Positions 13,611 through 33,251 of a DNA stretch of 35,508 nt are shown piece after piece. A model generated the notes under the pieces. That model was not told the DNA's origin. It searched no databases and saw nothing but the letters and a program-made list of their open reading frames with translations. This DNA comes from Gilvimarinus agarilyticus (GTDB lineage Bacteria; Pseudomonadota; Gammaproteobacteria; Pseudomonadales; Cellvibrionaceae). The DNA lies in assembly GCF_000832015.1 (NCBI RefSeq), contig NZ_JXCJ01000001.1:1165759-1201266 (forward strand), read 5' to 3'. The number at the start of each line of letters is the position of its first letter. Position 1 is the first letter of the stretch. A program made the translations under genes and the position numbers.

Positions 13611-13791
13611 GTTCCGCTAGGGGTTGGTGCTGATATTTACCATGGCGGATATCGCAAAGCCGCTCGTCTTGAGTGTCAGGTCTATGCGCCCGGTTTTAGT
13701 GGGGCGCGACAAAAGCAATAACAACACTATTGCGCAACGAGTGAGAGCCACACAGGGAAGCGCGCAAAGCAATCGCACTGGAGAACACAAT

Positions 13792-16700
13792 ATGAAGAAG
13801 CCAGATAAATACTCTGACGCGACGGGGGCGCTGTCGCGTTGCAGTCGTATAGGATGGAAATCGTTGCTTGGCGCTTGTGCGCTTATGTCCCTAGGCGCCA
13901 CTACTGCATTTGCTCAGTCGTCGCCCACCGAAGATGACTTTCAGCGCCAGGTGGTTGCGGAAAACCTCGACCTGCCGATGGAGTTTGAAATCTCTCAGGA
14001 TGGGCGTGTGTTTATCGCCAGTAAATGTGGCGCTCTTTACGCGTGGAATATTGACAATGGCACGCCCACCCAAACCGATACAGTGCCCAATGTGCGCTGC
14101 GCGTTTGAAGATGGCTTGCTGAGTGTTGCGCTAGACCCTAACTTTACGCAAAACAATTACATTTACTTTCAGTACACCTCGCCCGGCAGTATCACACGGG
14201 TTTCACGCTTTACGGTTAACGCCGACAACTCGCTTGACCACAACTCCGAGTCGATTTTACTGCAGTGGATCACCGGCGATGAAGCGCACGGCCACATGGG
14301 TGGCTCCATGCAGTTTGATACAGCCGGAAATTTAATTATTACTACCGGCGACAATAAGGCCGCGGGTGGTTATTTTCAGCCCTCGGCACAGGGCACCTCG
14401 GGTAATACCAATGATTTACGCGGTAAAGTGCTGCGTATTACCCCCACTGCTAACGGGGGTTTTACCATCCCGGCGGGCAACTTATTTACAGGCGACGCGC
14501 TGCATCGGCCCGAAATTTACGCCATGGGTTTTCGCAACCCCTTTCGCTTGAATGTGGATCCGCAAACCGGTTGCTTGTACGTTGGCGACATTGGTCCAGA
14601 TGCTTCGGCCGATAGTGCCGAGGGCCCGGGCGGCTTAGATGAACTGAACGAGATATGCAGCTCGGGTAACTACGGCTGGCCTTATATTATCGGCTACAAC
14701 CAGCCGTACGCAGGGTTTGACCCCAATAATATTGTGAACAACGCCTCGGATAATACTGGCGCGACTAACTTGCCAAGCTCAACGGGTGCCATTTGGACTG
14801 TTCGCCACCAGGCCACTATGGCCGGCCCGGTATACCGCTACGATGAAAGCATCGAAAGCGAGTTTAAACTGCCTCCTTACTACAGCGGTAAATTGATTTT
14901 TTGGGACTTTAACAGCAGTCGCTTTTCGGTGCTCGACCCTGCATCTGGTAGCAATCCGCCGGTGGCCGAAGACTTCCCGTTGAATACCGCCGGGTTTCAG
15001 GGGGCGATCGATGTTGAGCTAGACCCGCGCACGCACCAGCTCTACGTGCTGCAGTGGGGCTCGGGCTGTTGTGATAAAGAGCCATATGGTGGCGGTGCGC
15101 TCTATCGCTTTGACTATGTGGGCGATCGTGATGACGGCCCTTTGCTGCCTGTGGTTAGCGCCTGGGCCAGCAGCGAAACCGGCGGCAACTTAGCGATGGA
15201 CGCGTTTGATGGCGATCTCGATGCCACCCGTTGGGAAAGTGAAGCCTCTGACCCGCAGTGGCTAAAAGCCGAGCTCGATCAAAGCTCTGTCATCAGTACC
15301 ATTAAAATTAAATGGGAAGGCGCTTACAGTGCGCGCTATGTGCTGGAGGGCTCAAACGATGACGTCAACTGGGATATGTTGGCGCAAGAGCTAAACGGTG
15401 TTGGCGGTACGGCATTGCATATTATTGAAAACACCAATGCCTATCGTTACGTACGTTTAACCAGCACCCAGCGTGGTACCGGCTATGGCCACTCGCTATT
15501 TGAAATGCAAATGTTCGGTGCCGAGGGCGATGAGCCCGAGCAATGCGAGCCGACAGGCTTTGCCTACCTGAATATGCCTTGCAAGTTGGACGCAAATTTT
15601 ACCAATGTGCCAACGCTGTTGTCGCAAACCGGTGTCTTTAGCGATACCGCCAATATGGTGCCGACACAAAATTTGATTTCATTTAAACCCAACACCAAAC
15701 TCTGGTCGGATCGAGCGCTTAAATCGCGCTGGATCTCACTGCCAACCGGCACACAAATTGGCTGGGATGAAAAAGAGTTTTGGGAGTTTCCGGCCGGTAC
15801 CGTGGCGGTGAAACATTTTGAGTTGCCGTTGGTGGGCGATGATGGCGCGGTGACCAAGCGTCTGGAAACACGTCTGATCGTGATGCAGCAAAACGGTAAG
15901 GTCTATGGCCTGACCTATAAATGGCGTGCCGATAACAGCGATGCTGACTTGCTGACCACCGAGGTGTTGGAAGACATCGATGTGGTTGATACCAACGGTA
16001 ATAGCTGGACGCAAACCTGGGCTTATCCAAGCCCGACTCAGTGTATTGATTGCCATAATGCCGGCTCTAGCCAAATCCTGGGTATGAGCACGCGTCAGTT
16101 AAACAGCGACTACGCTTACGCCGGCGGAAGTGAAAATCAGCTGGTTCACTTTAACAATATGAACCTCTTTAACCCGGGCTTTAATAATGCGCAGGTAGAT
16201 ACTTTTGATCGCATGGTGGCGATTGATGATACCAGTGCCAGCTTAGAGACGCGGGTCAAGTCGTACCTCGATGCTAACTGTGCCCATTGCCATGGTACCG
16301 GTAACGGTGGTTCGCAATGGGATGCACGCTTTAATACGCCGCTTGCCAATATGCAGGTTGTCAGCGAGTTAACCACCGGCATTCGCAACTACGAAAACTA
16401 TTATGGAATAGCCGATGCCGAAGTGGTTACCCCCGGTGCACCCCATCAGTCGGTATTGTTTATTCGCGATAAGAGCGAAGACCCGGATGATCGTATGCCG
16501 CCTATCGGGCGGGCGCTGGAGCACACAGCGTACATCGATGTGTTAGAACAGTGGATTAACTCGCTCGAAGGCGGCCAAGACACAGGCGTACGTTTGTTGT
16601 CCGACGGTGCAACCGCGCAGGCATCATCGGTACAGGACGCATTCGTTGCTGACTTTGCAACCGATGGCGACCCGACAACGCGCTGGTCGAGCCTGGCCGA

Positions 16701-19700
16701 AGACCCGCAGTGGCTTCAAATTGATTTAGGTGGTGTGTATGCCATCGATTCGATAACGCTCAACTGGGAAACCGCGTACGGCAGTGCCTACACCATCGAA
16801 GGCTCCACCGACGGTGTCACCTGGACTGAGGTGCTGGTCAATAATAACGATCAGGGCGGCGTAGAAGAGCTGTCCAACTTATCCGGAAATTATCAGTACA
16901 TTCGCCTGACGGGTACCGAACGCGGCACGCAGTGGGGCTACTCGTTGTTTGAAGTTGCAGTGTACGGCACAGACGCTGTGGCTACTGAGGCCGGCTTGCT
17001 GTCGCTTAATAAGCCCGCCAGCAGCTCTGATATTGAGGGCGACATGGTGGCGGCGAATGCCTTTGACGGCGACCCGGCAACGCGATGGGCCAGTGAGTTT
17101 GCCGACCCGCAGTGGTTGCAGGTGGATTTAGAGAAGGTGTCCACCTTAACCGCCGTTAACTTGAGCTGGGAGGCCGCGTACGGCAGCAGCTACACCATTG
17201 AAGGCTCGGTGGATGGCAGCAACTGGACCGTGCTCGCCAGCGTATCCGGCGGTAATGGGGGGAGCGAGTCGCTGAATGTCTCGGGTGATTACCGCTATGT
17301 GCGTATGGTTGGCACTGAGCGGGGCACCGAATGGGGCTACTCGCTGTTTGAAATGGAGGTGTGGGGCTACGGCGATGTTCAGGCGCCAACGGCCAGTGTC
17401 ACCATTCAGTCCCCAAGCGCGGGTCAGGCTCTGCAGGCTGGCCAGGCTGTTAATCTGGCGTTGTCAGTCAGCGATGCTAACTGGTTTACGGCCGGTGGCA
17501 GCGTGCGTTACAGCGTCGATGGTGGCCTTGATACGACGACTACCAGCTCGACGGTAAACCTTGGGGTACTGCCCGCCGGGGCACATAGCGTCACGGTGGT
17601 GTTGCTGGACGGCGCCGGTGATACCGTGGGCGCAACGCGCCGTGTGAACTTTACGGTGCAGGCCGGTGAGACGAATGATGCTGAACTTTTGAGCTTAAAC
17701 AAGTCGGCCACGTCGTCTGAGGTCGAAGGTCCGCACGTTGCCGGCAATGCGTTTGACGGCGATATGAATACCCGCTGGAGTAGCGAGCATACCGCGACTC
17801 ACTTTTTACAAGTGGACTTGGGTGCAAGCTACGCTATTGGCAGTCTTCAAATTGATTGGGAGCCGGCCTACGCCACCGCTTATACCATAGAGGTGTCAGA
17901 AGATGGCAGTGCCTGGTCGCCGGTTTACAGCACGACTAGCGGCGCCGGTGGCAACGAAACGCTCGAAGTTTCCGGCGTTGGTCGTTACGTGCGTTTAAAC
18001 GCAACGGAGCGTGCCACGGTTTACGGTTACTCCATTTGGGAGATGCGAATTTACAGCGAAGGCGATGTCGCCGTGGATGCTGGCATTGATATAACCGCCC
18101 CGTTTAACAATCAGGCCTTTATTGAGGGTGACGCTGTTAACTTATCGGTGGCTATCGATGACGCCGACTGGTTTAACAACGGTGGAAGCTATCGGTATTA
18201 CCTGGACGGTAACGGCGCGGTTAGTGTGGCTCAAACCGGCAGCGTAAACCTTGGTGTGCTAAGTGTTGGCAGCCACTCGGTAAGTGTCGACTTGTTGGAT
18301 GCCAATAACACGGTGGTGGGCGACGGAGACGCAGTTCAGTTTGTGGTAAACACCGATGGCGGTAATAACGGCGGCCCAACCGGTTCTCCCGAGCAGTTAA
18401 CGCCCATTGATGTCACCGCCTCTAGCATTGTTGGCACGGGTGTCGCCGCGAATGCCATTGATGGCAACGAGGCTTCGCGCTGGGAGAGTGAGCAAAGCGA
18501 TCCGCAGTACCTGCAACTGGATATGGGGGAGTTAACCTACTTTACCCGTATCTTGCTGGATTGGGAGGGCGCTTACGCCAACGTTTACACCATTGATGTT
18601 TCGGATGATGGCAACACTTGGACCACGGTTTACTCGACCGACAGCGGCGATGGCAATGTCGATGACATCACGCTCAATGGTGAGTCGGGGCGTTACATCC
18701 GTATGCACGGCACCGGTCGCGCTACCGGTTACGGCTACTCGCTATTTGAAGTGGCGGTATACGGTATGGCGGCCGACCCGGATCTGGCGCTGGTGAATAT
18801 TCTCTCGCCCGCAGCGGGAGCCAGTATTGCCGAGACGGACCCGGTGAATCTGCAGGTAAACATTACCGATAGCGGTTGGTTGGCGAACGGTGGGAAATAT
18901 CGTTACCGTCTTGATGGTGGCGCGCCGGTGGATGTCACTAACTTAAATACCGTTAATCTCGGTAATCTGGCCACCGGCCGGCATACTCTGCAGGTTACCT
19001 TGGTTGATGCCTCTGGTGCCGAAGTGAGTATTCCTCGCACGCGGGAGTTCTCGGTTAACTGCGGTAATGACTGCCCCAATGTGTTGGTGTTTTCAAAAAC
19101 ATCGGGCTTCCGTCATGGATCGATCCCCGCCGGTATCGCGATGGTTGAAGCGATCGCCGCCGACTATGGCTACGGTATTACCGCCAGCGAAGATGCGAGT
19201 CTGTTCAGTGCGGCTAACCTTGCGCAGTACAGCACCGTGGTGTTTATGAACACTACCGGTGATATTTTTACACCCGCGCAAAAAGCAGCCTTCCAAAGCT
19301 ATATCGAAAATGGCGGCGGTTTTGTCGGGACACACTCGGCCGCCGATACCGAACACGGTTGGGACTGGTATACCGATACTCTGATGGCCGGTGCGGAGTT
19401 TATTCACCACGGTGACGGCATCCCTTACGCCCGTGTCGAGATCGAGACGGTCAATGATCCTTTGGTCGATCATATCGGTTCCGATTGGTACCTGGCCGAT
19501 GAGTGGTACTTCTGGGAGGGAAACCCCCGTGGTGTGGGTAATGTTCAGGTATTAGCTAACCTCGATCGCGGTAGTTATAACTCAAACTACCCGGTAGAAG
19601 ATCACCCTGTGGTGTTTAAAAACACTGTAGGTGCCGGTCGTGCGTTCTACACCGCCGTCGGCCATGTGGATGAGAATTTCTCTGACCCCAATATGGTTGA

Positions 19701-19740
19701 GATGATCCGCAAGGCTATTGAATGGACGTCTGAAGACTAG
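13792..19740 (+). CDS. Giant secreted PQQ-type sugar dehydrogenase / diheme cytochrome / discoidin / ThuA fusion
   Basis: A protein of 1,982 residues. The ATG at 13792 is chosen over upstream in-frame starts because GGAG lies eight bases before it and a clean signal peptide follows (cleavage after AFA, residue 41). Order of domains: soluble PQQ glucose/sorbosone dehydrogenase beta-propeller at about 53-442 (HGHMGG with His168, LRGKVLRI, RNPFRLNVDP, YVGDIG); F5/8 C domain at 447-577; a diheme cytochrome module at about 583-927, resembling SO2930/HNE_0200-type proteins, with heme sites CIDCH (751-755) and CAHCH (830-834); F5/8 C domains at 933-1061, 1069-1196, 1298-1425 and 1534-1662; Ig-like spacers at about 1203-1291, 1430-1523 and 1665-1762; ThuA-like domain at 1763-1982 (GGGFVGTHSAADT). 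It probably oxidises a carbohydrate outside the cytoplasm and passes electrons to its own hemes while gripping a glycan through the discoidin domains. The substrate is unknown. Confidence 0.88.
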   Translation: MKKPDKYSDATGALSRCSRIGWKSLLGACALMSLGATTAFAQSSPTEDDFQRQVVAENLDLPMEFEISQDGRVFIASKCGALYAWNIDNGTPTQTDTVPNVRCAFEDGLLSVALDPNFTQNNYIYFQYTSPGSITRVSRFTVNADNSLDHNSESILLQWITGDEAHGHMGGSMQFDTAGNLIITTGDNKAAGGYFQPSAQGTSGNTNDLRGKVLRITPTANGGFTIPAGNLFTGDALHRPEIYAMGFRNPFRLNVDPQTGCLYVGDIGPDASADSAEGPGGLDELNEICSSGNYGWPYIIGYNQPYAGFDPNNIVNNASDNTGATNLPSSTGAIWTVRHQATMAGPVYRYDESIESEFKLPPYYSGKLIFWDFNSSRFSVLDPASGSNPPVAEDFPLNTAGFQGAIDVELDPRTHQLYVLQWGSGCCDKEPYGGGALYRFDYVGDRDDGPLLPVVSAWASSETGGNLAMDAFDGDLDATRWESEASDPQWLKAELDQSSVISTIKIKWEGAYSARYVLEGSNDDVNWDMLAQELNGVGGTALHIIENTNAYRYVRLTSTQRGTGYGHSLFEMQMFGAEGDEPEQCEPTGFAYLNMPCKLDANFTNVPTLLSQTGVFSDTANMVPTQNLISFKPNTKLWSDRALKSRWISLPTGTQIGWDEKEFWEFPAGTVAVKHFELPLVGDDGAVTKRLETRLIVMQQNGKVYGLTYKWRADNSDADLLTTEVLEDIDVVDTNGNSWTQTWAYPSPTQCIDCHNAGSSQILGMSTRQLNSDYAYAGGSENQLVHFNNMNLFNPGFNNAQVDTFDRMVAIDDTSASLETRVKSYLDANCAHCHGTGNGGSQWDARFNTPLANMQVVSELTTGIRNYENYYGIADAEVVTPGAPHQSVLFIRDKSEDPDDRMPPIGRALEHTAYIDVLEQWINSLEGGQDTGVRLLSDGATAQASSVQDAFVADFATDGDPTTRWSSLAEDPQWLQIDLGGVYAIDSITLNWETAYGSAYTIEGSTDGVTWTEVLVNNNDQGGVEELSNLSGNYQYIRLTGTERGTQWGYSLFEVAVYGTDAVATEAGLLSLNKPASSSDIEGDMVAANAFDGDPATRWASEFADPQWLQVDLEKVSTLTAVNLSWEAAYGSSYTIEGSVDGSNWTVLASVSGGNGGSESLNVSGDYRYVRMVGTERGTEWGYSLFEMEVWGYGDVQAPTASVTIQSPSAGQALQAGQAVNLALSVSDANWFTAGGSVRYSVDGGLDTTTTSSTVNLGVLPAGAHSVTVVLLDGAGDTVGATRRVNFTVQAGETNDAELLSLNKSATSSEVEGPHVAGNAFDGDMNTRWSSEHTATHFLQVDLGASYAIGSLQIDWEPAYATAYTIEVSEDGSAWSPVYSTTSGAGGNETLEVSGVGRYVRLNATERATVYGYSIWEMRIYSEGDVAVDAGIDITAPFNNQAFIEGDAVNLSVAIDDADWFNNGGSYRYYLDGNGAVSVAQTGSVNLGVLSVGSHSVSVDLLDANNTVVGDGDAVQFVVNTDGGNNGGPTGSPEQLTPIDVTASSIVGTGVAANAIDGNEASRWESEQSDPQYLQLDMGELTYFTRILLDWEGAYANVYTIDVSDDGNTWTTVYSTDSGDGNVDDITLNGESGRYIRMHGTGRATGYGYSLFEVAVYGMAADPDLALVNILSPAAGASIAETDPVNLQVNITDSGWLANGGKYRYRLDGGAPVDVTNLNTVNLGNLATGRHTLQVTLVDASGAEVSIPRTREFSVNCGNDCPNVLVFSKTSGFRHGSIPAGIAMVEAIAADYGYGITASEDASLFSAANLAQYSTVVFMNTTGDIFTPAQKAAFQSYIENGGGFVGTHSAADTEHGWDWYTDTLMAGAEFIHHGDGIPYARVEIETVNDPLVDHIGSDWYLADEWYFWEGNPRGVGNVQVLANLDRGSYNSNYPVEDHPVVFKNTVGAGRAFYTAVGHVDENFSDPNMVEMIRKAIEWTSED
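15130..18780 (+). repeat. Five repeated F5/8 C (discoidin) modules within the giant gene
   Basis: Modules lie at about 15130-15522, 16588-16972, 16996-17377, 17683-18066 and 18391-18780. Each has the pattern AFDGD-x-x-TRW-x-SE, then DPQWL-x-x-DL, then W-EAAY, then a GY-x-LFE end, and each carries a related DNA core such as GACCCGCAGTGG. The second and third copies are adjacent and the most alike, which suggests recent tandem duplication. The fourth departs from the pattern (ATHFLQVDLG). Confidence 0.85.
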
Positions 19741-20628: not shown

Positions 20629-21177
20629 ATGAGCATGCACTATTCAAATGGTATGGAACGCATCTACTTTAAGGCCCTCGGATTAATGCGCCGCACTGTG
20701 GGCAGAGTGGTACCACCTGACGATGTGGAAGATATAGTGCAGGAAACTTATGTAAAAGCCTGTCAAATTCGGGATTTGGGGCACATACGCAACCCTCAGT
20801 CATTTTTACTCAAAATGGCGCGCAACCTTGCTTTAGATCACATAAAGCGAGCGGAATACCGTTTGGCTACATCAATCACTCAGCTATCCGGCGATAGTGA
20901 CTTTGAACTTGGCTCTGAGCACGACAGTACCCTTGACTGTGTTACCGGTGATCAGGAGTTTTCGCTTTTTTGTGAGGCCGTGCGGCAGCTGCCGCAACAG
21001 TGCCGGCGCGCCTTTGTGTTAAAAAAGGTCTACGGCTACAGCCAAAAAGATATCGCTGAGCGCTTGGGGATTAGTGAGAGCACGGTAGAAAAGCACATAG
21101 CCACGGGGCTGCTTAAGTCACGTCGGTTTATGCGGAATAAAATGGGTGCATCGCTGGAGCCGGGTCGCTATGAGTAA
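20629..21177 (+). CDS. FecI-like ECF RNA polymerase sigma factor
   Basis: A 182-residue sigma-70 family protein with the two ECF domains. Region 2 lies at about 10-77 (DDVEDIVQETYVKACQ, then NPQSFLLKMARNLALDHIKR). Region 4 lies at about 113-165 (LPQQCRRAFVLKKVYGYSQ, then IAERLGISESTVEKHI), the helix-turn-helix that reads the -35 element. The run AFVLKKVYGYSQKDIAERLGIS, seen here in two pieces, is typical of the FecI subgroup. It is paired with a FecR-like gene overlapping it by eight bases, and an STN-bearing TonB receptor follows, the classical surface-signalling trio. A second ATG at 20635 has better spacing from the AGCCAGG at 20621 and may be the real start. Confidence 0.93.
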   Translation: MSMHYSNGMERIYFKALGLMRRTVGRVVPPDDVEDIVQETYVKACQIRDLGHIRNPQSFLLKMARNLALDHIKRAEYRLATSITQLSGDSDFELGSEHDSTLDCVTGDQEFSLFCEAVRQLPQQCRRAFVLKKVYGYSQKDIAERLGISESTVEKHIATGLLKSRRFMRNKMGASLEPGRYE

Positions 21178-22228
21178 TGTATTGCGCTTTGAGAGCCGAG
21201 ATGACATTGACCAGCGCGCGTGTCGCTGGGTGGCCGCCATGGATCGCGGCTTGAGTGCCGCTGAGCGCAGCCAATTAAGCCGCTGGTTAAAGCAACACCC
21301 AGCCCATGAGCGAGCGCTGTATGAATGTGCCCAGCTGTGGGACAACATGGATCAACTGAGTCGATTGGCCGGGCTGTTCCCGGAGATGAACCCATCCCCC
21401 TGGCGCCGCCCGCTAATGTTGAGTGCCGCGGCTTCGGTGCTGCTCGTGGTTTGCCTGAGCATCGCCTTAATGATGACCGGTGTGGCGCAGCCCGGTTGGT
21501 TTAACCAGGCGCTACTGTCCTCCGCTCCGTCCAAGGGCGTACTGACCACGGCAAAAGGTGAGCGTCGCAGCATCGCCTTGAGTGACGGCAGTCGTTTAAC
21601 GTTAAACACCAACTCGCAACTTGAGTTGGATTTTAATGCCCGTTACCGCGATATTCTGCTGCGCCGTGGTGAGCTCAATGTCCAGGTGGCTCATGATAGC
21701 TCGCGCCCCTTGCGGGTTTTTGCCGGTGGTAAATTAGTCGAAGCGGTGGGTACAGCATTTAATGTGCAGCTTTTGGAAGGCAACCGTGTTGAGCTGATTG
21801 TTACTGAGGGTAAAGTGCTGGCGGCCCATGCACGTGCTGCGGATGCACCTCAAACCCGTGCGAATACAAATTACAGCCGTATCGACCCCGCGGTAAAGCC
21901 GGTTGGTGCGCGCGAGCGATTGGTGCTTGCCCAGGCGGATACTGACGTAGAGCGAATGAGTGACGCCGACGTTAATACCCTGCTGAGCTGGCAGCGCGGC
22001 GAATTAGTGTTTCGTGGCGAGACCCTGGCGCAGGCGATTGCCGAGGTAAGCCGCTATACCGATACCAGGATTACCTTTGCCGATCCGGAGCTAAAATCGA
22101 TACGTATTGCCGGGCTGTATCGCGCCGGCGATGTCGACGGCTTGTTGGCTGGATTACAAAATAATTTTTCAATTGGTCATCGCTACCTGGATGACAACTC
22201 CATTGAGCTTAATGCCCTAACCGACTAG
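21170..22228 (+). CDS. FecR-like anti-sigma factor / signal transducer
   Basis: A 352-residue protein starting at the ATG at 21170, which overlaps the sigma factor stop by eight bases (ATGAGTAA) and has GGAG ten bases upstream; a longer GTG start at 21146 is less likely. Domains: cytoplasmic DUF4880-type sigma-binding region (about 12-66, with Trp20), one membrane span (81-104), periplasmic FecR domain (about 126-217; GERRSIALSDGSRLTLNTNS, then VEAVGTAFNVQ), and a C-terminal STN-like/DUF4974-type domain (about 275-350). It would sense the loaded receptor in the periplasm and control the sigma factor. Confidence 0.93.
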   Translation: MSNVLRFESRDDIDQRACRWVAAMDRGLSAAERSQLSRWLKQHPAHERALYECAQLWDNMDQLSRLAGLFPEMNPSPWRRPLMLSAAASVLLVVCLSIALMMTGVAQPGWFNQALLSSAPSKGVLTTAKGERRSIALSDGSRLTLNTNSQLELDFNARYRDILLRRGELNVQVAHDSSRPLRVFAGGKLVEAVGTAFNVQLLEGNRVELIVTEGKVLAAHARAADAPQTRANTNYSRIDPAVKPVGARERLVLAQADTDVERMSDADVNTLLSWQRGELVFRGETLAQAIAEVSRYTDTRITFADPELKSIRIAGLYRAGDVDGLLAGLQNNFSIGHRYLDDNSIELNALTD

Positions 22229-22293
22229 CACCTAAGTAACCATCTTGCCTTGATCGACAATAAAACTCAGGCCAAACCGATGAGAAAATAATA

Positions 22294-25161
22294 ATGAAAG
22301 ATTGGTTTTGGGGGAAATTAAAAGCAGGTTCGTCTTTGACCTTGGTGAGAGTAATACTCGCCGGGATTACAAAAAGTGTTGCGTTTTTTTTGTTGGCGGC
22401 AATGGTGTTTGCACGCGCTTATGCTGTGAACCTTGACGAAAAACATCACTTTGATATCCCCGCAAGCCGAGCTGACATCTCTCTGACTGAGTTTGCTTTG
22501 CAGGCCAATATAACTTTGGTTTTTCCGTTTGATCGAGTGAAGGGCGTCACTACCAACCCGCTAGTAGGGACTTACAGTCTCGCCCGGGCACTGGATCAGA
22601 TTTTAGCCTATACGCCATTGACCTATAGCGTCAGCGAAGACGGTCAGCTCGCGATAATGAACGAGCCATCTACGCAAGAGAGCGATAATATGAATAAAAA
22701 GTATCTGTCTGTGGCGGTAGCTACCGCCCTTGGCACCTTAGCAAGCGCAGCCAGCGTTGCTCAGCAGGCCGCAGAGCCTGAAGCCCACGGCCTGGAGGTG
22801 GTTACTGTGACCGCCCGCCGTAAAGAAGAGAATTCACAGCAGGTTCCCGATACCGTTATTGCCTTTTCTGGTGATGCGGTAGAGCGTGCGAATATCCAGG
22901 CCGCACGGGATGTAACGGTTAGAATCCCCAATGTGGCTATCACCGAATCCTTAAGCCCGTCGTCAACGTTTTTAATTGTGCGCGGCATCTCGTCAGTACG
23001 TAACTCTGAGCCGGCGGTGGCCGTTGTTGTCGATGGTGTTCAGGTGGGTAGCGCGTCCGAAATTTCGCAGTCGTTTTTTGACGTAGAACAAATTGAATTG
23101 CTAAAAGGCCCTCAGGGCGCTCTGTATGGGCGCAATGCTTTAGGCGGCGCCTTGATTGTCACCTCAAAGAAACCCACTGAGGATTTCGAGGGCCGCTTTA
23201 GCGTGGGTGGTGGCAATGGCGATTTGTTTGAGGTGAACGGATCGCTCGCGGGCGCGATTACCGATGATTTAATGTTTCGCTTTGCCGGCAATCATCGCTC
23301 GTTTGGCGGGACCATCGAAAACCAGTACTTAAACGATGTCTACGAGCGAAATTCACGTGCGGTGACCGGAGATACCCCGAGCAGCAGCTACATGGATTTT
23401 GAAGAGAATCGCGATTTTCGTGCCCAGCTGCTCTGGGAGCCAACCGATCGCACCTCGGTGGATTTACGCTATTCGCAAAATGACCTCGAGTCGGGCGCCA
23501 TGTGGTATCGCAATATCTACCGCTTAGAGACAGACCCAAACGAGGTTTACGAGTTTCCGATTAACTCCAACGGCAATCCAACCGCGAATCGCACCATCAA
23601 TAGTGGCTCGTTAAAAATTGAGCATGGTTTTGATGATGTGACCTTAACCTCGATTACTGCTGCGACGGATACCAATGAGCGCTATGGCGTTGCCGGCGAA
23701 ACCCGTGGTAATGATCGCACCGGTAACGTGTTGTTTTTTACCGAGCCCTACGTCAACGCGTTTATCGACAGCCTTGATAGCGACATCGATCGCGAATTTT
23801 TTAGCACCACACTGGCAGACTGGGCCGCGGGTAATTTTGTCGGCTCCGATCAGTACTATGATGTACAAACCGTATCGCAAGAGCTGCGTTTGTCTGGCAG
23901 CTTCTCGGACGAGCTTGAGTACGTGGTTGGCGCCTACGGTTTGTTAACCGATCGCGCCGATACGCTGCGTACCACCTGGGAGCGGCCAGAGGGGCAACCC
24001 TTTGACTGTCAGCCAGCTTACCCCGGCGGCCCGATAAAAACCGACTTTAGTACCTGTAACGGTTTAATTGATGCCACCCAAAACGAGCAGGACAATACCG
24101 CCTGGGCGGTGTTTTTTAGCACTGATTACCACATGACTGACACCTTAACCCTGACCCTGGCCGGCCGTTACGATGAAGATAAGCGCGAAGTCACCCGTAT
24201 TGATGGGCCAACGGTGGACACCTTTGGTTTGGGAGTGGGCAGCTGTGATTCTGTCGCTGACCCAGAGAACTGTTCGCCCGCAGGCTCCACCATTAGCCGG
24301 ACTTTCTCGGCGTTTCAGCCGAAAGTTTCGCTGGCTTATACACCAAGCGATGACTGGACCTTTTACGGCACGGCGGCGCGTGGTTTTAGAAGTGGTGGCT
24401 TTAATGCCTCGGGCGCGTTATTGACGGACAGTTATGATCAGGAGACGCTGGATAGCTTCGAGCTTGGTTTTAAGTCAACTTTGTTGGGAAATCGATTGCG
24501 CGCCAACGGTGCGATCTTTCACCAGCGTTACGAGAACGCCCAGCAATTTGAGTTTGATGGTGCAATTTTTGTGCAGAGCCTGTACAACATTCCCAAAAGC
24601 GAAATCAATGGCGTTGAGCTGAGCTTAGACTTTGCCGCCACGGATAATCTATTGTTGAGCGCCGGTGTCGGTATTATGGAATCCGAGATTACCGAGTTCG
24701 ACTCGGGTATTCGCGATCGTATGCAATCGGAGTTGCTGGCTCGTACCGCTAACACCGTTAAATTGCCCGCCGGTACTCAGGCTTCATTTGACAATAATTT
24801 TCACGGCGAGAAAATGCCCAACTTTCCACATCAGTCCGCCAATGTGTCGGCGCGACACGACTTACCCATTGGCCGGGACGACAACCTGATCACGCAAATT
24901 GAGTACAGCTACACGGCTGACCGTTATTGGTGGATCGATGGTCAGGATGTGCAAGACGATGTGGGGTTAGTAAACGGCAGTATCGCCTACGTGTTTGACG
25001 ATAACCTTGAGTTTCAGTTGTGGTGTAAAAACTGTACCGACGTCGATTACGACTCTGAGTATGCTCCCACCGAGAAAGAACTCTTTGGCGGCGCGGCAAA
25101 AGATGTGGCCTATCAGGCCCGCGGCCGTACTTTTGGCTTAAAGGCAAAGTATAAGTTTTAG
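22294..25161 (+). CDS. STN-domain TonB-dependent outer-membrane receptor with an internal signal-peptide-like segment
   Basis: A 955-residue receptor. A signal peptide (cleavage after ARAYA, residue 44) leads to an STN signalling domain (about 53-123), a TonB-box-like LEVVTVTARR (167-176), a plug domain (about 183-300; GPQGALYGRNALGGA) and a beta-barrel ending in KYKF. STN domains let a receptor signal to FecR, so it fits the two genes before it. Odd feature: between STN and the TonB box, Met133 begins a complete signal-peptide-like stretch (MNKKYLSVAVATALGTLASA, then ASVAQQ). The ATG at 22690 has a purine-rich AAGAGAG before it, so a shorter receptor without STN could be made. The substrate is unknown; the convergent GH16 gene hints at a beta-glucan, though iron chelates are the other usual cargo of FecI/FecR systems. 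Confidence 0.9.
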   Translation: MKDWFWGKLKAGSSLTLVRVILAGITKSVAFFLLAAMVFARAYAVNLDEKHHFDIPASRADISLTEFALQANITLVFPFDRVKGVTTNPLVGTYSLARALDQILAYTPLTYSVSEDGQLAIMNEPSTQESDNMNKKYLSVAVATALGTLASAASVAQQAAEPEAHGLEVVTVTARRKEENSQQVPDTVIAFSGDAVERANIQAARDVTVRIPNVAITESLSPSSTFLIVRGISSVRNSEPAVAVVVDGVQVGSASEISQSFFDVEQIELLKGPQGALYGRNALGGALIVTSKKPTEDFEGRFSVGGGNGDLFEVNGSLAGAITDDLMFRFAGNHRSFGGTIENQYLNDVYERNSRAVTGDTPSSSYMDFEENRDFRAQLLWEPTDRTSVDLRYSQNDLESGAMWYRNIYRLETDPNEVYEFPINSNGNPTANRTINSGSLKIEHGFDDVTLTSITAATDTNERYGVAGETRGNDRTGNVLFFTEPYVNAFIDSLDSDIDREFFSTTLADWAAGNFVGSDQYYDVQTVSQELRLSGSFSDELEYVVGAYGLLTDRADTLRTTWERPEGQPFDCQPAYPGGPIKTDFSTCNGLIDATQNEQDNTAWAVFFSTDYHMTDTLTLTLAGRYDEDKREVTRIDGPTVDTFGLGVGSCDSVADPENCSPAGSTISRTFSAFQPKVSLAYTPSDDWTFYGTAARGFRSGGFNASGALLTDSYDQETLDSFELGFKSTLLGNRLRANGAIFHQRYENAQQFEFDGAIFVQSLYNIPKSEINGVELSLDFAATDNLLLSAGVGIMESEITEFDSGIRDRMQSELLARTANTVKLPAGTQASFDNNFHGEKMPNFPHQSANVSARHDLPIGRDDNLITQIEYSYTADRYWWIDGQDVQDDVGLVNGSIAYVFDDNLEFQLWCKNCTDVDYDSEYAPTEKELFGGAAKDVAYQARGRTFGLKAKYKF

Positions 25162-25202
25162 TGCTTGGAGTCCTCTGGCATGGGGTTTCGATACCCTCAC
25201 TT

Positions 25203-25229
25203 GGCGGGCCGTTATGGCCCGCCTTTTTT
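25203..25229 (+). terminator. Rho-independent terminator after the STN-type receptor
   Basis: GGCGGGCC (25203-25210) pairs with GGCCCGCC (25216-25223) around a five-base loop, then six T residues. Confidence 0.94.
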
Positions 25230-25261
25230 ATGCCAGTAGTGACATTATTTATCCGACATAA

Positions 25262-25290
25262 AAAAGCCCGCGAGGCTATCGCGGGCTTTT
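25262..25290 (-). terminator. Rho-independent terminator after the GH16 gene
   Basis: A perfect 12-base stem, AAAAGCCCGCGA (25262-25273) with TCGCGGGCTTTT (25279-25290), lies 14 bases beyond the stop of the - strand gene. On that strand the stem ends in a T run. Confidence 0.94.
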
Positions 25291-25304
25291 GGGTACGGTG
25301 GCTG

Positions 25305-27002
25305 TTACTGATAAACCCGAACGTAATCGACGTACATGCGCTGAGTGCTAAAGTTGGCGTGATCCGGATCACCCGGCCAGTTGCCACCAACCGCGACGTT
25401 AAGCAAGAACCAGAAAGGTTGGTCGTACACCCACTGGCCGTATTGCTCGACTTGCGCACGAGTCACACTGTAAAAATTAATGTCGTCTACGTACCAGCGA
25501 ATACCGTTTGCATCCCACTCGACCGCGTAGATTTTATAGGATTGCTCGATAGGTGTGGCATGATCGAGGTGTCCGGTGATAGGCGTGTTGCCTGAGTAAC
25601 CCGGCCCGTGCAGCGCGCCCGAGGTGATGTTGTTGGTGCCAACATGTTCCATAATGTCCAGCTCACCACCCTGAGGCCAGCCCTGAGTATTAAAGTTGTC
25701 ACCCAGCATCCAGAAGGCGGGCCAAATACCCTGTGCTTTAGGCAGCTTTAAACGAGCTTCCATCCGGCCGTATTTAAACGATTTTTTGTTGCGGGTGTTC
25801 ATCCGGGTTGAGGTGTAGCCGCAGTTGCCACCAAACCAGCAGGCGCCGCCAGTCTCTTGTCGAGCTTCCAGCACCAGTACATTGCTGCCGGCCTGCGGAT
25901 CGTACTGGATCGAGGCATTGTTGCCATTGGTGTAGTACTGCAGCTCATTGTTACCCCAGCCGTTGCCGCCGGTTTCAAAGTTCCAGGTGTTTAAGTCGAT
26001 GCTATCGAACTCATCGCTCCAGGTAACCGTTGGGTTGGGATTTGGGTTGCCGCCGCCATCGGTGGGTGTGGCTTTAATCCAGTTGAGGTTCCAGCCGCCA
26101 GTGGTGGCATACACCCCAAGGCTGTGGTTACCGGCCGGTAGGTACGCATCAAGCGTCACCGTTTGCCAGGTTTGCCAGCCGCCGGTTACCGGAATGGCGA
26201 CTTCGCCCAGTGACGTGCTGCCGCCGTTTACATCCAGCGACAGTACTCCGCCGCTGCCACTGGCGACTCGCACCTCAAATTGATAGTTGCCGGCGGTGGG
26301 GACATTGAAATCATTGTAGGCCAGCCACTCGCCGGATTCGGTCCAGCCAACATTGTAGCCGCCGCCCTGGTCACTGGTGGCTTCGATATCCACATCGCCG
26401 CTGCGATAAGTGCCCCCGGTGTTGCCTGGCGTGGTGTCGCTGGCGTTGTCGTAATCTTCGGCCTCAAAGGTTACGCTGCTGCCTCCGCCACCGGTGCTGC
26501 CCACGGGCTCGACTTCAATCCAGTTAAAGTTCCAGCTGCCAGTACTGGCGTAGACGCCCAGATTGTAGGTGCCGGCGCTCAAATCGACCTCTCGCTCTAC
26601 GGTTTGCCAGCTTTGCCAACCACCCGTGGAGGGTATGGCGAGCTCGCCGAGCAGGATCGAGCCGGCATTGAGGTCGACTGACATGGCGCCGCCTGTGCTA
26701 CTGGCGACGCGTGCCCGAACCACATAGCGGCCATTGGCGGGGATGTTAAGGCTGGCGTAGGTGAGCCACTCTCCGGCCTCTATCCAGCCCACATTATAGC
26801 CGCCGCCTTCGTCACTCGTGGCTTCAATATCGACGTCATCTGAGCGATAGGCGCCTCCGGTGTTGCCGGCGGAGGTGTCGGCAAAAGCGGTGTAATCTTC
26901 GGCCTGAAAACGCGCGGCCAGCGATGCATGGCTGCACAATATGGCGCTGGCACAGAGCGCGGCACTGAGCAAGCGTTTGGGATGTGAGTACTTTATTGTC
27001 AT
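25305..27002 (-). CDS. Secreted GH16 beta-glucanase (laminarinase-like) with two CBM6 domains
   Basis: A 565-residue extracellular enzyme. The signal peptide ends near SLA (residue 29). Two CBM6 carbohydrate-binding modules (about 31-167 and 177-312) are joined by a Gly/Ser linker, and a Gly/Asn/Pro linker leads to the GH16 domain (about 326-565). The catalytic motif is GELDIMEHVG, with Glu447 as nucleophile, Asp449 and Glu452 as acid/base, the beta-bulge arrangement typical of beta-1,3-glucanases; other landmarks are IWPAFWMLG and QPFWFLLNVAVGG. Laminarin or a related beta-1,3-glucan is the likely substrate; agarases and porphyranases of GH16 differ around this motif. It is convergent with the STN-type receptor gene, each having its own terminator. 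Confidence 0.93.
   Translation of the reverse strand: MTIKYSHPKRLLSAALCASAILCSHASLAARFQAEDYTAFADTSAGNTGGAYRSDDVDIEATSDEGGGYNVGWIEAGEWLTYASLNIPANGRYVVRARVASSTGGAMSVDLNAGSILLGELAIPSTGGWQSWQTVEREVDLSAGTYNLGVYASTGSWNFNWIEVEPVGSTGGGGSSVTFEAEDYDNASDTTPGNTGGTYRSGDVDIEATSDQGGGYNVGWTESGEWLAYNDFNVPTAGNYQFEVRVASGSGGVLSLDVNGGSTSLGEVAIPVTGGWQTWQTVTLDAYLPAGNHSLGVYATTGGWNLNWIKATPTDGGGNPNPNPTVTWSDEFDSIDLNTWNFETGGNGWGNNELQYYTNGNNASIQYDPQAGSNVLVLEARQETGGACWFGGNCGYTSTRMNTRNKKSFKYGRMEARLKLPKAQGIWPAFWMLGDNFNTQGWPQGGELDIMEHVGTNNITSGALHGPGYSGNTPITGHLDHATPIEQSYKIYAVEWDANGIRWYVDDINFYSVTRAQVEQYGQWVYDQPFWFLLNVAVGGNWPGDPDHANFSTQRMYVDYVRVYQ
26067..26912 (-). repeat. Tandem CBM6 coding repeat in the GH16 gene
   Basis: Two copies of about 410 bases encode modules sharing FxAEDY, GNTGG-x-YRS-x-DVDIEATSD-x-GGGYNVGW, GEWL-x-Y, GGWQ-x-WQT and a W-N-x-NWI end. 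The DNA is also clearly alike (for example the two stretches at about 26337-26440 and 26770-26870), which points to an internal duplication. Confidence 0.85.
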
Positions 27003-27121: not shown

Positions 27122-27305
27122 ACGTCTGAAAATCGGTAAGCTTTTACGCGAGCCCAGAGCCGGCAAGGCCTGGACCGGGTAGATGGGTTTGGAATATCGA
27201 AAAGGTGTTTTAATTTCAACAACCAGTGAAGCCTACGACGGCTATGGTATGATGGCTGCCACCTGTGGCGACAATAATAGACGATTGCGGATAACGGTGG
27301 GCGAC

Positions 27306-28187
27306 ATGGTAATGATCAAAAAAGCGGTAATGCGTTGGATGGGCGTCGCCTGCCTGCTAGTGGGCAGTGCAGTGCCAGCGTATGCGGCCCAGCAGAATTC
27401 AGCGGCCGATACCGTTGCGAGCTCATCAAACCCCGCTATACCCGAATATGTGTTGTGGGTTGGGGGTAATGCGCCGGGGCGCGCCGAGCACGAAGTCGAC
27501 GTGATTACTCGGGCACTGGAGCGTACTGAAGCAAAGTACGGACCCTATAAGTTAGTGGTGTCTCGCGAAAGCTCTCTCGGCGGCGATTGGCGCCACCTGC
27601 TCACCGCCGGGGATAAAATTCATATTGTCCCTACGTCGTACCTGAGCTTCCCGCCCGATGAAATAACACTGATTCCGGTGCCTATCGCAGGAGGCAAGTT
27701 GGGTTACCGCCATGTGGTGGTTAGACGCGATAGGCTAGCTGAGTTTGCCGGCGTGCAACACGCGCACGATTTGCGTGACAAGCTCGCCGGTCAAGGGCTG
27801 TATTGGCCAGACATGTGGGTCTACGAAGCCAATGAACTGCCGGTGGTGGGCAGTGAAGATTTACCCGCGTTACTAAAAGCGCTCGATAAAGGTGATATTG
27901 ATTACTTACCTCTGGGGGTAAATGAAACCGAGTCTATCTTGCAAAAATACGCCCCAAACCCAGAGCGCTTTGCCGTCGTCCCCAACCTGCTTATTTACTA
28001 TCCGTTATCCAGCACCCCCGTCGTGACGAGTAAGCGCCCAAAGCTTATTGCGCGTCTGAGTGAGGGGTTGGAGGCAATGCACGCCGACGGCAGTTTGCAT
28101 GGCATGGCGGCTGACAAGTACGCGCCAACTCGCTGTCGTATTATAAAACTCGAAAACCCCACAAGTCTGTTCCCGGTAATTTACTAA
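27306..28187 (+). CDS. Periplasmic solute-binding-like protein (type 2 PBP fold), orphan
   Basis: A 293-residue exported protein. The ATG at 27306 is chosen because a typical signal peptide follows (hydrophobic core, cleavage after AYA near residue 24) with GGTGGG a few bases upstream; the frame is open further upstream to 27183, but that part reads as leader. The mature protein resembles the transporter-substrate-binding superfamily: a first lobe strand near YVLWVGG, a central KALDKGDIDYLPLGVNE segment typical of the hinge and second lobe, and a C-terminal LSEGLEAMHADGSLHGM helix. No transporter genes are beside it, so it may act as a sensor or accessory protein rather than a transport receptor. 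Ligand unknown. Confidence 0.75.
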   Translation: MVMIKKAVMRWMGVACLLVGSAVPAYAAQQNSAADTVASSSNPAIPEYVLWVGGNAPGRAEHEVDVITRALERTEAKYGPYKLVVSRESSLGGDWRHLLTAGDKIHIVPTSYLSFPPDEITLIPVPIAGGKLGYRHVVVRRDRLAEFAGVQHAHDLRDKLAGQGLYWPDMWVYEANELPVVGSEDLPALLKALDKGDIDYLPLGVNETESILQKYAPNPERFAVVPNLLIYYPLSSTPVVTSKRPKLIARLSEGLEAMHADGSLHGMAADKYAPTRCRIIKLENPTSLFPVIY

Positions 28188-30758: not shown

Positions 30759-33251
30759 TTACTTTAAAAGCTTATAAGTTTCGATACCTGCCAGAATAAA
30801 AGGCCCGGTACCTTTTGGATCGTTTTTAAATACGGGTTCGCTCATATAATAGTCGTAACTCCCGTCGCGCCCGAAGCCGAGACCGGCGACATAGCATTGA
30901 TTGGTCATGCTAATGCTGCCATCGGCACCCACGGTAACAAACTCTCGTATCAGGCCGTCGTAGGCTTTTTGCGCTGTTTCGGTAAAGTCGTCGCTTAGGT
31001 AACCTTTATTAATAGCTTTCGAGTAAAAGTAACTGAACATAGCGCTGGCGCTGGATTCGCGGTAGTTTCCGGGAGCTTCAGGCATATCCATGATTTGCCA
31101 CCAAACGCCGGTTTGTGGGTCTTGATAGCGCTGTAGATCCTCGGCCATTTCTTTAACCATGGCCAGTAGTGGTGCCCGTTGTTCGGTGTTCTCCTCTGGA
31201 ATGATTTCCAGTACGTCCACCAGTGCCATGGCCAGCCAGCCCATGCCCCGGCCCCAAAAGTGCGGTGACAAGCCGGTTTCCGGGTCGGCCCAGTCCTGCT
31301 GTTTCTTTTCATCCCAGGCGTGGTAATACAGGCCCGTTTCAGGGTCGCGTAGATATTTACGCGTTAATTCAAACTCTTTTACAACTTCGCCCAAGCTGGC
31401 GCCGTCTTCAAACATCACAGAATAGCCCGCCAGAAAGGGCATGCCCATGTACACGCCGTCCAGCCACAGTTGGCTGTCGTATTTTTTCTTGTGCCAGAAG
31501 GCGCCTTCGCTGGTTTTAGGATGATGCTCTAATTGCTCGCGGATGGTAGTGGCGGCAATCTTGTACTTTTCTTTGCCAGTTTCCTGGAACAGTGCGAGCA
31601 GGTTGCGCCCTGGTTTGACGCTGTCGATGTTGTAGTTGCTAACTTTATAACGGGCAATCTCACCTTTATCGTTGATAAAGCTACCTGTTACTTTGGGCAT
31701 TACCTCGGCGTAGCGCGGGTCCGGGGCGATCTTGTTGAGCTCGTCATAGGCTAGCGGCAGCAAGCCGATAATATCGTATTCAAATTTAGGGTCGCGCTCG
31801 CGGTTCACATCCCAGCCATTTACATGATAGCCCAGGGCTTTGCGTTCAAGCTCGTCATCGGCCAGGCGCTTGCTCCAGTTAAGTGCTTGTTCTGCACTTA
31901 CCGGAAAAGACTTTTCTGATTCGCCGAGACGCGTTTTAACTTGTTCGCGCGGTGGTACCGTGAGCTTTTGAGCCTCTGCGTTGAGGTATTCGATAAAAGC
32001 TTCTTTGGAGGTGATGCCATTAGCTTCGCCCTCCCACGCGGCCAGAAAATAGTAATCCAGATCTTCACCGGCGGCCTTCATTACAGATACATAGTTGTGC
32101 TCGTCTTCAGTTTGCTGCTCGCGATCGGATTTTCGAAACAATAACGCCATGCCTAATAGATCATTGTTGAGCGTTTGCTTCCCCCAGCTGGCGACATAGG
32201 TATAGGCTTTTCCGGTAATATCGATATCACCCTGAATGAACTCGGTGCCGGGATGCTTAACCAAGCCTATCGCAAAGTTGTCCAGTGATTTGTCGAGGCT
32301 CAGGCGTGTGTGGACCATCCTGCTGCCGCCATGCATGGAAAGTATGGCATTTAAGTTGACCGGCATGTCGTTAACCTGCCAGTTCTTATAATCGATACTG
32401 AGTGAGGAGTAGAGGTCGCCGTTGTCGAGGATTTTAGCGTCCCAGCCCTCAACGTCCTGTACCCGAACAACTTTTTCGCCGTCCCAAAATCCGTAGCCGC
32501 CGGCCCCAAGTGAGCTGCCAACCTTGAGTATATCCATGCCCCAGTCCGCCATATGGTGGTAGGAGTCATAGCCGTCTTGCCCTACGTTTTGCAGCGCCAT
32601 CGCCGGTTGGGTTTTACCAAAAATATCAAAACCGTTACGGCGGTCGAGATAAATACGATAACCCACCTTATCGGACTCAATCCCCGGGCCCTCGTAACGA
32701 ATATAGTAGGAGTGATCGTCATGCTGGGGCGGCGGTGTCAGCTGATCGACGTTCTCGAATGTTCCGCCAACGTAGATTTGTTTCCCTGGTTTTTCCGGGT
32801 CTTTTTGCCATTGCCCATCGACCTTGTGAGAAATTTCAGCCTGAGAGCGTTTGGCCGTGTCCACCGGCTCTAGCCCGCTTACCACGTTTAAAGACAGCGA
32901 CTCCGCCGGCTTAAAGTCCAATAAGGTAAACAGGCTATCATTGTCACCGTCGCCATCACGATCAATGAGTTGGCTGGCGATGGCCTCGCCGTCAAGTGAG
33001 ACACCGAGGTCATCGCCAGAGTTAACCCCAAGCTCGTTAAAATTAATAATATATGGCGTATCGGAGCGCTCTTGCTGGCTGGGGTTGCTCAAAGTGATGC
33101 TCGCCACAGCGGTTGGCTTGGGGGCGCTAGTCATCGACTTGGGAGAAGAGCTGGCCGAGCTGTTAGTTTGCGGCGTGCTGGATTCTTGGCAGCCGATAAG
33201 CGCCAGCGTGCTGGCAGCCAAGCCGATAACGAGAGCGTTCTTTCTATACAT
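30759..33251 (-). CDS. DUF4861-GH105 fusion lipoprotein (unsaturated rhamnogalacturonyl/galacturonyl hydrolase)
   Basis: An 830-residue lipoprotein (lipobox LIGC, acylated Cys21, Gln at the next position, which favours outer-membrane sorting). A Ser/Thr/Pro-rich linker leads to a DUF4861-type region (about 50-440), including a calcium-loop-like DRDGDGDND at 97-105. The C-terminal part (about 455-830) is a GH105/GH88-type alpha/alpha barrel: Asp543 (NIDSVKPGRNL) and Asp598 (QLWLDGVYMGMPFLAG) have the same 55-residue spacing as the catalytic Asp88 and Asp143 of YteR. Such enzymes hydrate and remove the unsaturated uronic acid left by pectate or rhamnogalacturonan lyases. The product feeds KduI, encoded next. 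DUF4861 is usually found as a separate protein. Confidence 0.9.
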   Translation of the reverse strand: MYRKNALVIGLAASTLALIGCQESSTPQTNSSASSSPKSMTSAPKPTAVASITLSNPSQQERSDTPYIINFNELGVNSGDDLGVSLDGEAIASQLIDRDGDGDNDSLFTLLDFKPAESLSLNVVSGLEPVDTAKRSQAEISHKVDGQWQKDPEKPGKQIYVGGTFENVDQLTPPPQHDDHSYYIRYEGPGIESDKVGYRIYLDRRNGFDIFGKTQPAMALQNVGQDGYDSYHHMADWGMDILKVGSSLGAGGYGFWDGEKVVRVQDVEGWDAKILDNGDLYSSLSIDYKNWQVNDMPVNLNAILSMHGGSRMVHTRLSLDKSLDNFAIGLVKHPGTEFIQGDIDITGKAYTYVASWGKQTLNNDLLGMALLFRKSDREQQTEDEHNYVSVMKAAGEDLDYYFLAAWEGEANGITSKEAFIEYLNAEAQKLTVPPREQVKTRLGESEKSFPVSAEQALNWSKRLADDELERKALGYHVNGWDVNRERDPKFEYDIIGLLPLAYDELNKIAPDPRYAEVMPKVTGSFINDKGEIARYKVSNYNIDSVKPGRNLLALFQETGKEKYKIAATTIREQLEHHPKTSEGAFWHKKKYDSQLWLDGVYMGMPFLAGYSVMFEDGASLGEVVKEFELTRKYLRDPETGLYYHAWDEKKQQDWADPETGLSPHFWGRGMGWLAMALVDVLEIIPEENTEQRAPLLAMVKEMAEDLQRYQDPQTGVWWQIMDMPEAPGNYRESSASAMFSYFYSKAINKGYLSDDFTETAQKAYDGLIREFVTVGADGSISMTNQCYVAGLGFGRDGSYDYYMSEPVFKNDPKGTGPFILAGIETYKLLK

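Follow-up and report, generated by a model that had tools for sequence, protein, structure and literature searches.

A secreted propeller–diheme–ThuA protein of Gilvimarinus agarilyticus and its possible action on glucan

Domain architecture and conservation

We analysed a 35,508-nucleotide stretch of the genome of the marine bacterium Gilvimarinus agarilyticus (the window; NCBI RefSeq assembly GCF_000832015.1, contig NZ_JXCJ01000001.1, forward-strand positions 1,165,759 to 1,201,266), in which a single open frame on the + strand runs without interruption from 13624 to 19740, counted from the first nucleotide of the window. Its likely start is the ATG at 13792, with GGAG 8 bases upstream, and the predicted protein comprises residues 1-1982 (13792-19740). 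From the N- to the C-terminus, Pfam and NCBIfam profiles place a GSDH propeller, a family 32 carbohydrate-binding module (CBM32, the discoidin or F5/8 type C fold), an SO2930-like diheme module, two CBM32 copies, an Ig-like spacer, CBM32, a second spacer, CBM32, a third spacer and a ThuA domain. The chain begins with a Sec-type signal peptide (residues 1-41, 13792..13914, ending …TTAFA before QSS, with the cleavage site read by eye), and the host genome carries CcmF/NrfE-type and type II secretin genes, both over the cut-off in a profile search. These domains, their order and their conservation are established by the analysis, as are the varied electron carriers of related propellers and, from trees, the repeated and separate coupling of ThuA to this propeller lineage. 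A preliminary description of this DNA had proposed the uninterrupted frame, the dehydrogenase-type propeller, the five discoidin copies, the first of them between propeller and heme module, and the ThuA-like end, all of which the domain scan bears out.

The propeller (residues 47-445, 13930..15126) is delimited by a Pfam GSDH match at residues 59-308 (143.3 bits against a cut-off of 25, E 1.5e-41), an AlphaFold2 model and Foldseek; the ThuA domain (residues 1763-1979, 19078..19728) matches PF06283 with 202.3 bits against a cut-off of 33.4 (E 1.4e-59). The core order GSDH-CBM32-diheme-CBM32s-ThuA occurs in at least five of 58 genomes searched: that of G. agarilyticus, three others among the eight Gilvimarinus genomes (G001, G003, G004) and one from another genus (G018). 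A survey of homologues for the same order, as the preliminary description had suggested, therefore found it in four further genomes and two genera. Across the N-terminal half or the full length, orthologues are 61-75% identical; across C-terminal pieces listed separately, the figure is 57-63%. The closest named loci belong to Gilvimarinus algae and G. gilvus, with a best-segment identity of 71-72%. The G018 variant has an additional N-terminal CBM6 and CBM32, and two post-heme CBM32 copies as against four. At E 1e-40, the full architecture was found among 369 genomes of the class only in G. agarilyticus itself, no other listed open frame exceeding 1228 aa, and none of 315 plasmid records with a match covers 80% of the protein.

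Propeller pocket and electron carriers

Soluble glucose dehydrogenase (sGDH), aldose dehydrogenases and HHIP are the top Foldseek matches to the propeller (5min, E 6e-22; 1cq1; 7cdy). The AlphaFold2 model rests on 16 rows, of which 13 are viral-contig relatives, and has a mean predicted local distance difference test (pLDDT) score of 69.5 and a predicted template-modelling (pTM) score of 0.78. Because its C-terminal half is weaker, we took the pocket residues from alignments and not from the model. A model of the propeller-CBM32-diheme portion, made from three rows, had a mean pLDDT of 30 and was discarded.

The catalytic residues of sGDH are retained. His168 (14293..14295) is the equivalent of the catalytic His144, and Arg248-Asn249 (14533..14538) are those of Arg228-Asn229; all three are kept in 48 of 48 rows aligned at these columns of a 49-row alignment, row L140 being gapped at four columns. 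The anchors of pyrroloquinoline quinone (PQQ) are replaced. In a whole-domain profile alignment, Arg406, Arg408 and Lys377 of sGDH become Gly404, Ile406 and Asn374, so that Gly404-Ala-Ile406 (15001..15009) stands in place of the PQQ carboxylate arginines Arg406-x-Arg408, and Asn374 (14911..14913) in place of Lys377. All five orthologues have Glu, Gly and Ile at the positions of Gln76, Arg406 and Arg408, and Asn at that of Lys377. Stand-alone aldose dehydrogenases of the same genus and of related genomes retain Gln76, Arg406 and Arg408 (12 of 12), while Lys377 varies among these 12 controls as well. Seventeen other ThuA-linked or cross-phylum rows retain Arg406 once and Arg408 never, and 11 further propeller rows, ten of them with a diheme module, retain neither. 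Row L063 had at first been taken for a stand-alone dehydrogenase; because it lies outside the stand-alone clade in the propeller tree, it is counted as "other". In the same tree the window propeller falls in a clade separate from the stand-alone aldose dehydrogenases. Where sGDH has its calcium-binding Gly-Pro loop, the window protein has a longer loop in which either of two Gly-Pro pairs, Gly268-Pro269 or another, can be aligned.

The preliminary description had called the enzyme PQQ-type. The term holds for the fold alone: with both carboxylate arginines replaced, and with PqqC found in none of the eight Gilvimarinus genomes, PQQ as the cofactor is not supported by the sequence. PqqC is present in 10 of 58 relatives and in none of 12 relatives with a ThuA-GSDH protein among the matches listed; PqqE exceeds its cut-off in none of the eight Gilvimarinus genomes and in 11 of the 58 relatives. 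Outside PQQ can be used by, and taken up into, organisms whose genomes have no pqq genes, and for this reason a missing PqqC is weak evidence when taken alone. Six Gilvimarinus genomes without PqqC do carry stand-alone aldose dehydrogenases with an intact Arg pair. His339 (14806..14808), in an H-x-A motif at the position of Thr348, is possibly the equivalent of His539 of AA12 enzymes (residue number from PMC6881789; the alignment holds no AA12 sequence), and for that reason PQQ may be bound in another pose.

Several features of the wider propeller family were seen alongside. Propellers with an N-terminal ThuA (L031-L034, L038, L064-L068) have Cys-Cys-His at the catalytic His, and the window family has a Cys-Cys pair at 426-427 (GCCDK) close to the propeller end. 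Contigs labelled viral (L104-L121) encode GSDH propellers with a GGxVYRG-type motif, which we take to be HHIP-like, in frames of up to 2019 aa. A GGxVYRG-type propeller is also combined with a divergent diheme module in frames of 1992-2255 aa (L035, L036, L040, L045) from Gilvimarinus and two other genera. On a Gemmatirosa plasmid (L140), the GSDH match is split across two frames.

The diheme c module (residues 607-925, 15610..16566) matches positions 2-314 of the 314 in the SO2930-like model TIGR03806 (E 7.9e-68); by sequence it is homologous to this family, though its 228.9 bits lie under the curated cut-off of 313.3. The two heme sites, CIDCH at 751-755 (16042..16056) and CAHCH at 830-834 (16279..16293), are exactly where the preliminary description had placed them, and a candidate Met ligand lies at 902, in RMPP. 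Both CxxCH sites occur in 21 of 21 rows of the diheme alignment. Related propellers carry one heme (Cytochrom_C), two hemes, five CxxCH motifs or a plastocyanin-like end, the last as a C-terminal domain of the Haladaptatus ThuA-GSDH protein (E 2.1e-6). The five-CxxCH forms follow GSDH-CBM32 in frames of 1184 and 1192 aa (L084, L085), from two genomes without a ThuA match (G066, G219). This variety of carriers argues that the propeller does redox work. A built-in heme is not universal, since no CxxCH was seen in the ThuA-GSDH frames of Paenibacillus, Nonomuraea and Streptomyces fungicidicus.

ThuA partnership, 3-keto link and target polymer

All 17 columns that are invariant in a 22-row ThuA alignment are kept in the ThuA domain, among them the conserved His/Glu/Asp set. 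Members of the same propeller clade are also found, within the Cellvibrionaceae, in proteins that begin with ThuA, of the types ThuA-GSDH-cytochrome c and ThuA-GSDH-diheme. In the propeller tree, the window protein and its orthologues are sister to the ThuA-GSDH-diheme proteins (99/94), and the diheme tree recovers the same sister group (100/99); propeller and heme module thus appear to have been inherited together. In the ThuA tree, by comparison, the window domain pairs with a stand-alone ThuA (99/97). Approximately unbiased (AU) tests, with groups defined after the propeller tree and a first ThuA tree were known, reject a common clade of the window and sister-group ThuA domains (p-AU 0.0125) and a single clade of all propeller-linked ThuA domains (p 2.6e-9). 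In the first ThuA tree, L100 was a faulty row (branch 10) and further rows were long; L100, L095, L101 and L103 were removed before the retained tree and the tests. Since the propeller and diheme trees disagree with the ThuA tree on the sister group, they indicate two or more acquisitions of ThuA by this propeller lineage, on opposite ends of the chain. The wider propeller clade is ThuA-linked in 17 of 20 rows, one of them by adjacency only. The sequences thereby support ThuA as a genuine partner of the propeller. No ThuA relatives were confirmed in viral contigs.

ThuA and the propeller are also fused in members of the Bacillota, Actinomycetota and Halobacteria. Of 208 plasmid records matching the ThuA-GSDH-cytochrome protein of G. 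agarilyticus, eight span 80% or more of it; they come from Paenibacillus, Nonomuraea, Embleya (two), Streptomyces (three) and Haladaptatus. Two of the Streptomyces records place the pair beside PF06439, a 3-keto-disaccharide hydrolase. In S. fungicidicus a PF06439 gene begins 23 bp past the end of the ThuA-GSDH gene, and in S. chartreusis, where the ThuA and GSDH parts are on different frames, a ThuA-PF06439-lectin frame adjoins a GSDH-CBM6-lectin frame. PF06439 is found in 11 of 12 relatives with ThuA-GSDH and in 11 of 46 without (p 2.9e-5), the 12 being those among the matches listed; counted by genus, the figures are 5 of 6 and 11 of 45 (p 0.009), with kinship not corrected. Neighbours in the unannotated plasmid records were screened only with a PF06439 profile that was built from two seeds, recovered 0 of 8 PF06439 loci offered to it, and is weak. 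In the G. agarilyticus genome itself, a 1202-aa frame (L156:1431-5033) joins PF06439 to cytochrome c. A further frame, of 1102 aa (L157:2922-6224), lies some 22 kb upstream of the window and has one CxxCH and an incomplete PF06439, and the model of PVC-type heme dehydrogenases matches at a distance of 212 bp from one PF06439 match.

Five F5_F8_type_C stretches (E 3.6e-106) give the CBM32 copies, at 15166..15528, 16582..16977, 16984..17382, 17683..18066 and 18394..18777. The preliminary description had listed three Ig-like spacers. Two are Big_7 stretches, one at 17383..17682 (the best stretch, residues 1202-1269) and one placed at 18067..18381 by reading the sequence, and the third, at 18778..19059, has only a weak BiPBP_C match under the cut-off. 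The nearest solved relative of CBM32 copy 5 is 4zy9, the discoidin domain of a glucanase/chitosanase that we take to be of the Paenibacillus type and to bind chitosan.

We scanned nine sister-CBM32 proteins, from nine regions chosen among the matches listed, leaving out a tenth frame (L125). Glyco_hydro_cc (GH128) or GH16 enzymes account for five, and di-haem oxidoreductases for two, of which one also has CBM6 and CBM56; the remaining two belong to neither kind. The G. agarilyticus genome has a second large heme protein that binds glycans, a 1229-aa frame (L123:2846-6529, in G000:C1:1823500-1830500) that unites CBM32, CBM6, CBM56 and a di-haem oxidoreductase (DHOR). Downstream of the gene in the window, genes for an extracytoplasmic function (ECF) sigma factor, FecR and a TonB-dependent receptor follow directly (20629..25161, + strand), an arrangement retained at three of four other loci examined. 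Beyond them, on the - strand, lies a GH16 gene with CBM6 and CBM35 matches (25305..27002), present at two of the four; a third locus stops short of it. Beside it, a 334-aa frame (27183-28187) has no Pfam match. Because the sister-CBM32 proteins are mostly Glyco_hydro_cc or GH16 and GH16 lies downstream, our best guess is that the five copies most likely target beta-1,3-glucan. The preliminary description had named pectin or glucan. Pectin is less likely, as the upstream uronate/pectin genes adjoin the gene at one of the four other loci (L025) and none were found at L026, L027 and L030, which reach only about 4-7 kb upstream.

Interpretation and relation to known systems

We propose, at a probability of roughly 40%, that the protein is a secreted multidomain heme-linked sugar dehydrogenase, anchored on glucan, whose ThuA domain handles the oxidised product. 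The five CBM32 copies would hold the protein on its polymer, a glucan of algal or fungal origin, and the propeller would abstract hydride from one of the chain's sugars by means of a quinone-like cofactor, held differently from PQQ in sGDH. Electrons would then pass to the diheme module of the same chain and on to a further acceptor. ThuA would act on the propeller's own product, most likely a 3-keto-glycosyl end, which it would open or eliminate. On beta-1,3-glucan such oxidation would be end-acting, since in this polymer only non-reducing ends and side chains leave C3 free. The whole would amount to a secreted counterpart of the ThuB/ThuA 3-keto-disaccharide route. As for its parts, a redox propeller with a heme outlet and ThuA acting on its product is probable, 3-keto chemistry is a tentative choice, and the cofactor, the regiochemistry and the ThuA reaction are all read from sequence relationships. 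The most specific form of the proposal is on balance unlikely: a single-chain glycan oxidase-lyase whose propeller, with a non-canonical cofactor, would oxidise beta-1,3-glucan to 3-keto ends, with the attached hemes taking the electrons and ThuA making the 3-keto sugar cleavable. The glycan-bound oxidase with its own electron outlet envisaged in the preliminary description is supported in part: the sequence bears out secretion, polymer binding and a c-type heme module, and does not support the PQQ part.

A number of observations weigh against this proposal. The propeller has lost its PQQ anchors and offers no other identified cofactor site, and its fold is shared by HHIP, which we take to be a non-enzyme. 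To our knowledge, the reaction of ThuA itself is unproven. For three propellers of the clade, the genome of origin has no ThuA match. ThuA and GSDH fall in one match in 2 of 398 genomes of the phylum, including that of G. agarilyticus (a figure that leaves out a 986-aa G442 frame with a ThuA match), so that beyond the family such fusions are rare among Pseudomonadota. Neither the protein nor 20 neighbouring frames matched PF06439 (E 0.001; frames 24890-25459, 30759-33251 and 33460-35490 left out), nor did PF06439 occur inside any of seven fused cross-phylum ThuA-GSDH frames; it is next door in only two of the eight cross-phylum records, and two more ThuA/PF06439 neighbourhoods are loose, with unrelated genes between. 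The polymer is uncertain, since copy 5 is closest to a glucanase/chitosanase domain and a related LamA domain has several ligands, namely laminarin, chitin, lichenan and cellulose (PMC2789033, in the part available), and four of the nine sister-CBM32 proteins are not glycoside hydrolases. The sGDH-type relatives characterised so far oxidise C1, according to the accessible part of PMC6881810, and a cytochrome-linked propeller of T. turnerae, whose nearest relatives are annotated as PQQ dehydrogenases, bound no PQQ in the portion of PMC10916295 at hand.

Part of this evidence would equally suit a PQQ pyranose dehydrogenase resembling AA12, which would scavenge its PQQ from outside, oxidise the reducing-end C1 and feed electrons through its hemes to a lytic polysaccharide monooxygenase (LPMO) or the cell, with ThuA as an accessory of other use. 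The shared fold, the retained His/Arg/Asn and the placement of His339 where His539 may be expected are in keeping with it, as are the intact-Arg-pair dehydrogenases in six Gilvimarinus genomes without PqqC. A fungal precedent, CcPDH, joins AA12, a cytochrome and a CBM, and the available part of PMC6881789 notes that no eukaryotic PQQ synthesis has been reported. We regard this explanation as unlikely, if still a serious one: Arg406, Arg408 and Lys377 are all replaced in each of the five orthologues, none of the 12 ThuA-GSDH relatives has PqqC among the matches listed, searches of the PDB gave no AA12 sequence match and a weaker fold match, and the repeated coupling to ThuA would be left unexplained.

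The loss of the anchors is also what a non-catalytic propeller would lead one to expect, one resembling HHIP, which ranks among the top fold matches, or the T. turnerae propeller, with the protein acting as a glycan-bound electron shuttle or adhesin and ThuA working alone; Tt pf08450-X173 showed neither PQQ binding nor glucose dehydrogenase activity, in the part of PMC10916295 available. We consider this improbable, given several kinds of electron carrier on related propellers and the repeated joining with ThuA. Retention of His/Arg/Asn in 48 of 48 rows also speaks against it and is not decisive, as HHIP's own residues lie outside the tabulation. That the domains are chain neighbours with no common task, through chance shuffling or an assembly chimera, is largely refuted and very improbable. 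The number of CBM32 copies and extra domains does vary, and the architecture is rare (own genome only at E 1e-40 in 369 class genomes). However, the same core order stands in five genomes of two genera (61-75% identical across the N-terminal half or the full length), and the trees show propeller and heme module inherited together. The chimera doubt raised in the preliminary description is thus not borne out, because the order recurs in three more Gilvimarinus genomes and another genus.

If the oxidase-lyase form of the proposal is correct, it would add an extracellular 3-keto route for breaking polymers and a defined chemistry for ThuA domains, for which we know of no clear reaction. The fusions in Bacillota, Actinomycetota and Halobacteria would then represent one and the same machine, fitted with different carriers and binding modules. 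By at least two apparently separate joinings, ThuA is linked to a dehydrogenase-like propeller with several carrier kinds and, in two Streptomyces, to a 3-keto-disaccharide hydrolase. This gives a testable proposal for ThuA and for large proteins annotated as PQQ dehydrogenases that perhaps do not use PQQ in the known way. In the open-licence PMC literature, no paper was found on the combination of ThuA and a PQQ dehydrogenase, and among the matches listed for ThuA with 3-keto chemistry none concerned this protein type by title.

The propeller resembles the soluble PQQ glucose and aldose sugar dehydrogenases (PF07995) in fold, catalytic His/Arg/Asn and Foldseek matches (5min, 1cq1, 7cdy). It differs in having Gly, Ile, Asn and Glu for Arg406, Arg408, Lys377 and Gln76, in its separate clade and in its fusion to hemes, CBMs and ThuA. 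In CcPDH (AA8 cytochrome, AA12, CBM1), a propeller dehydrogenase, a cytochrome and a CBM likewise share one chain (PMC6881789, in part); its heme is b where that of the window protein is c, and ThuA is absent from the domain list given there. AA12 folds match the window propeller at E 1e-10 to 5e-9 with about 10% identity (Foldseek), and the position of AA12 Arg621 is probably Gly in our protein, judged through sGDH Arg406. TERTU_3803, TERTU_2913 and Cbp2D, from cellulolytic relatives, are also large secreted proteins with CxxCH domains and, except for TERTU_2913, CBMs; TERTU_3803 has in addition a propeller-like pair. In the available parts of PMC10916295 and PMC12542752, however, the propeller is PF08450-X173, the cytochromes are X183 and X132, the binding modules are CBM2/CBM10 and no ThuA is named.

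The Cellvibrionaceae ThuA-GSDH-cytochrome proteins and the ThuA-GSDH proteins of Paenibacillus, Streptomyces, Embleya, Nonomuraea and Haladaptatus share ThuA, a propeller of the same clade or profile, often a CBM and in some cases a carrier. Unlike the window protein, the fused forms place ThuA first and have CBM6, malectin or ricin lectin in place of five CBM32 copies. ThuB is an NAD-type dehydrogenase inside the cell. The ThuB/ThuA route is alike in that ThuA reportedly belongs to an operon for assimilation via 3-keto derivatives, going by the title of Ampomah 2013, and unlike in that the intracellular ThuB would here be replaced by a secreted heme-linked propeller. Set beside these systems, the parts of the protein are already known and their combination has no counterpart in the papers searched, the coupling to ThuA being the strongest new result.

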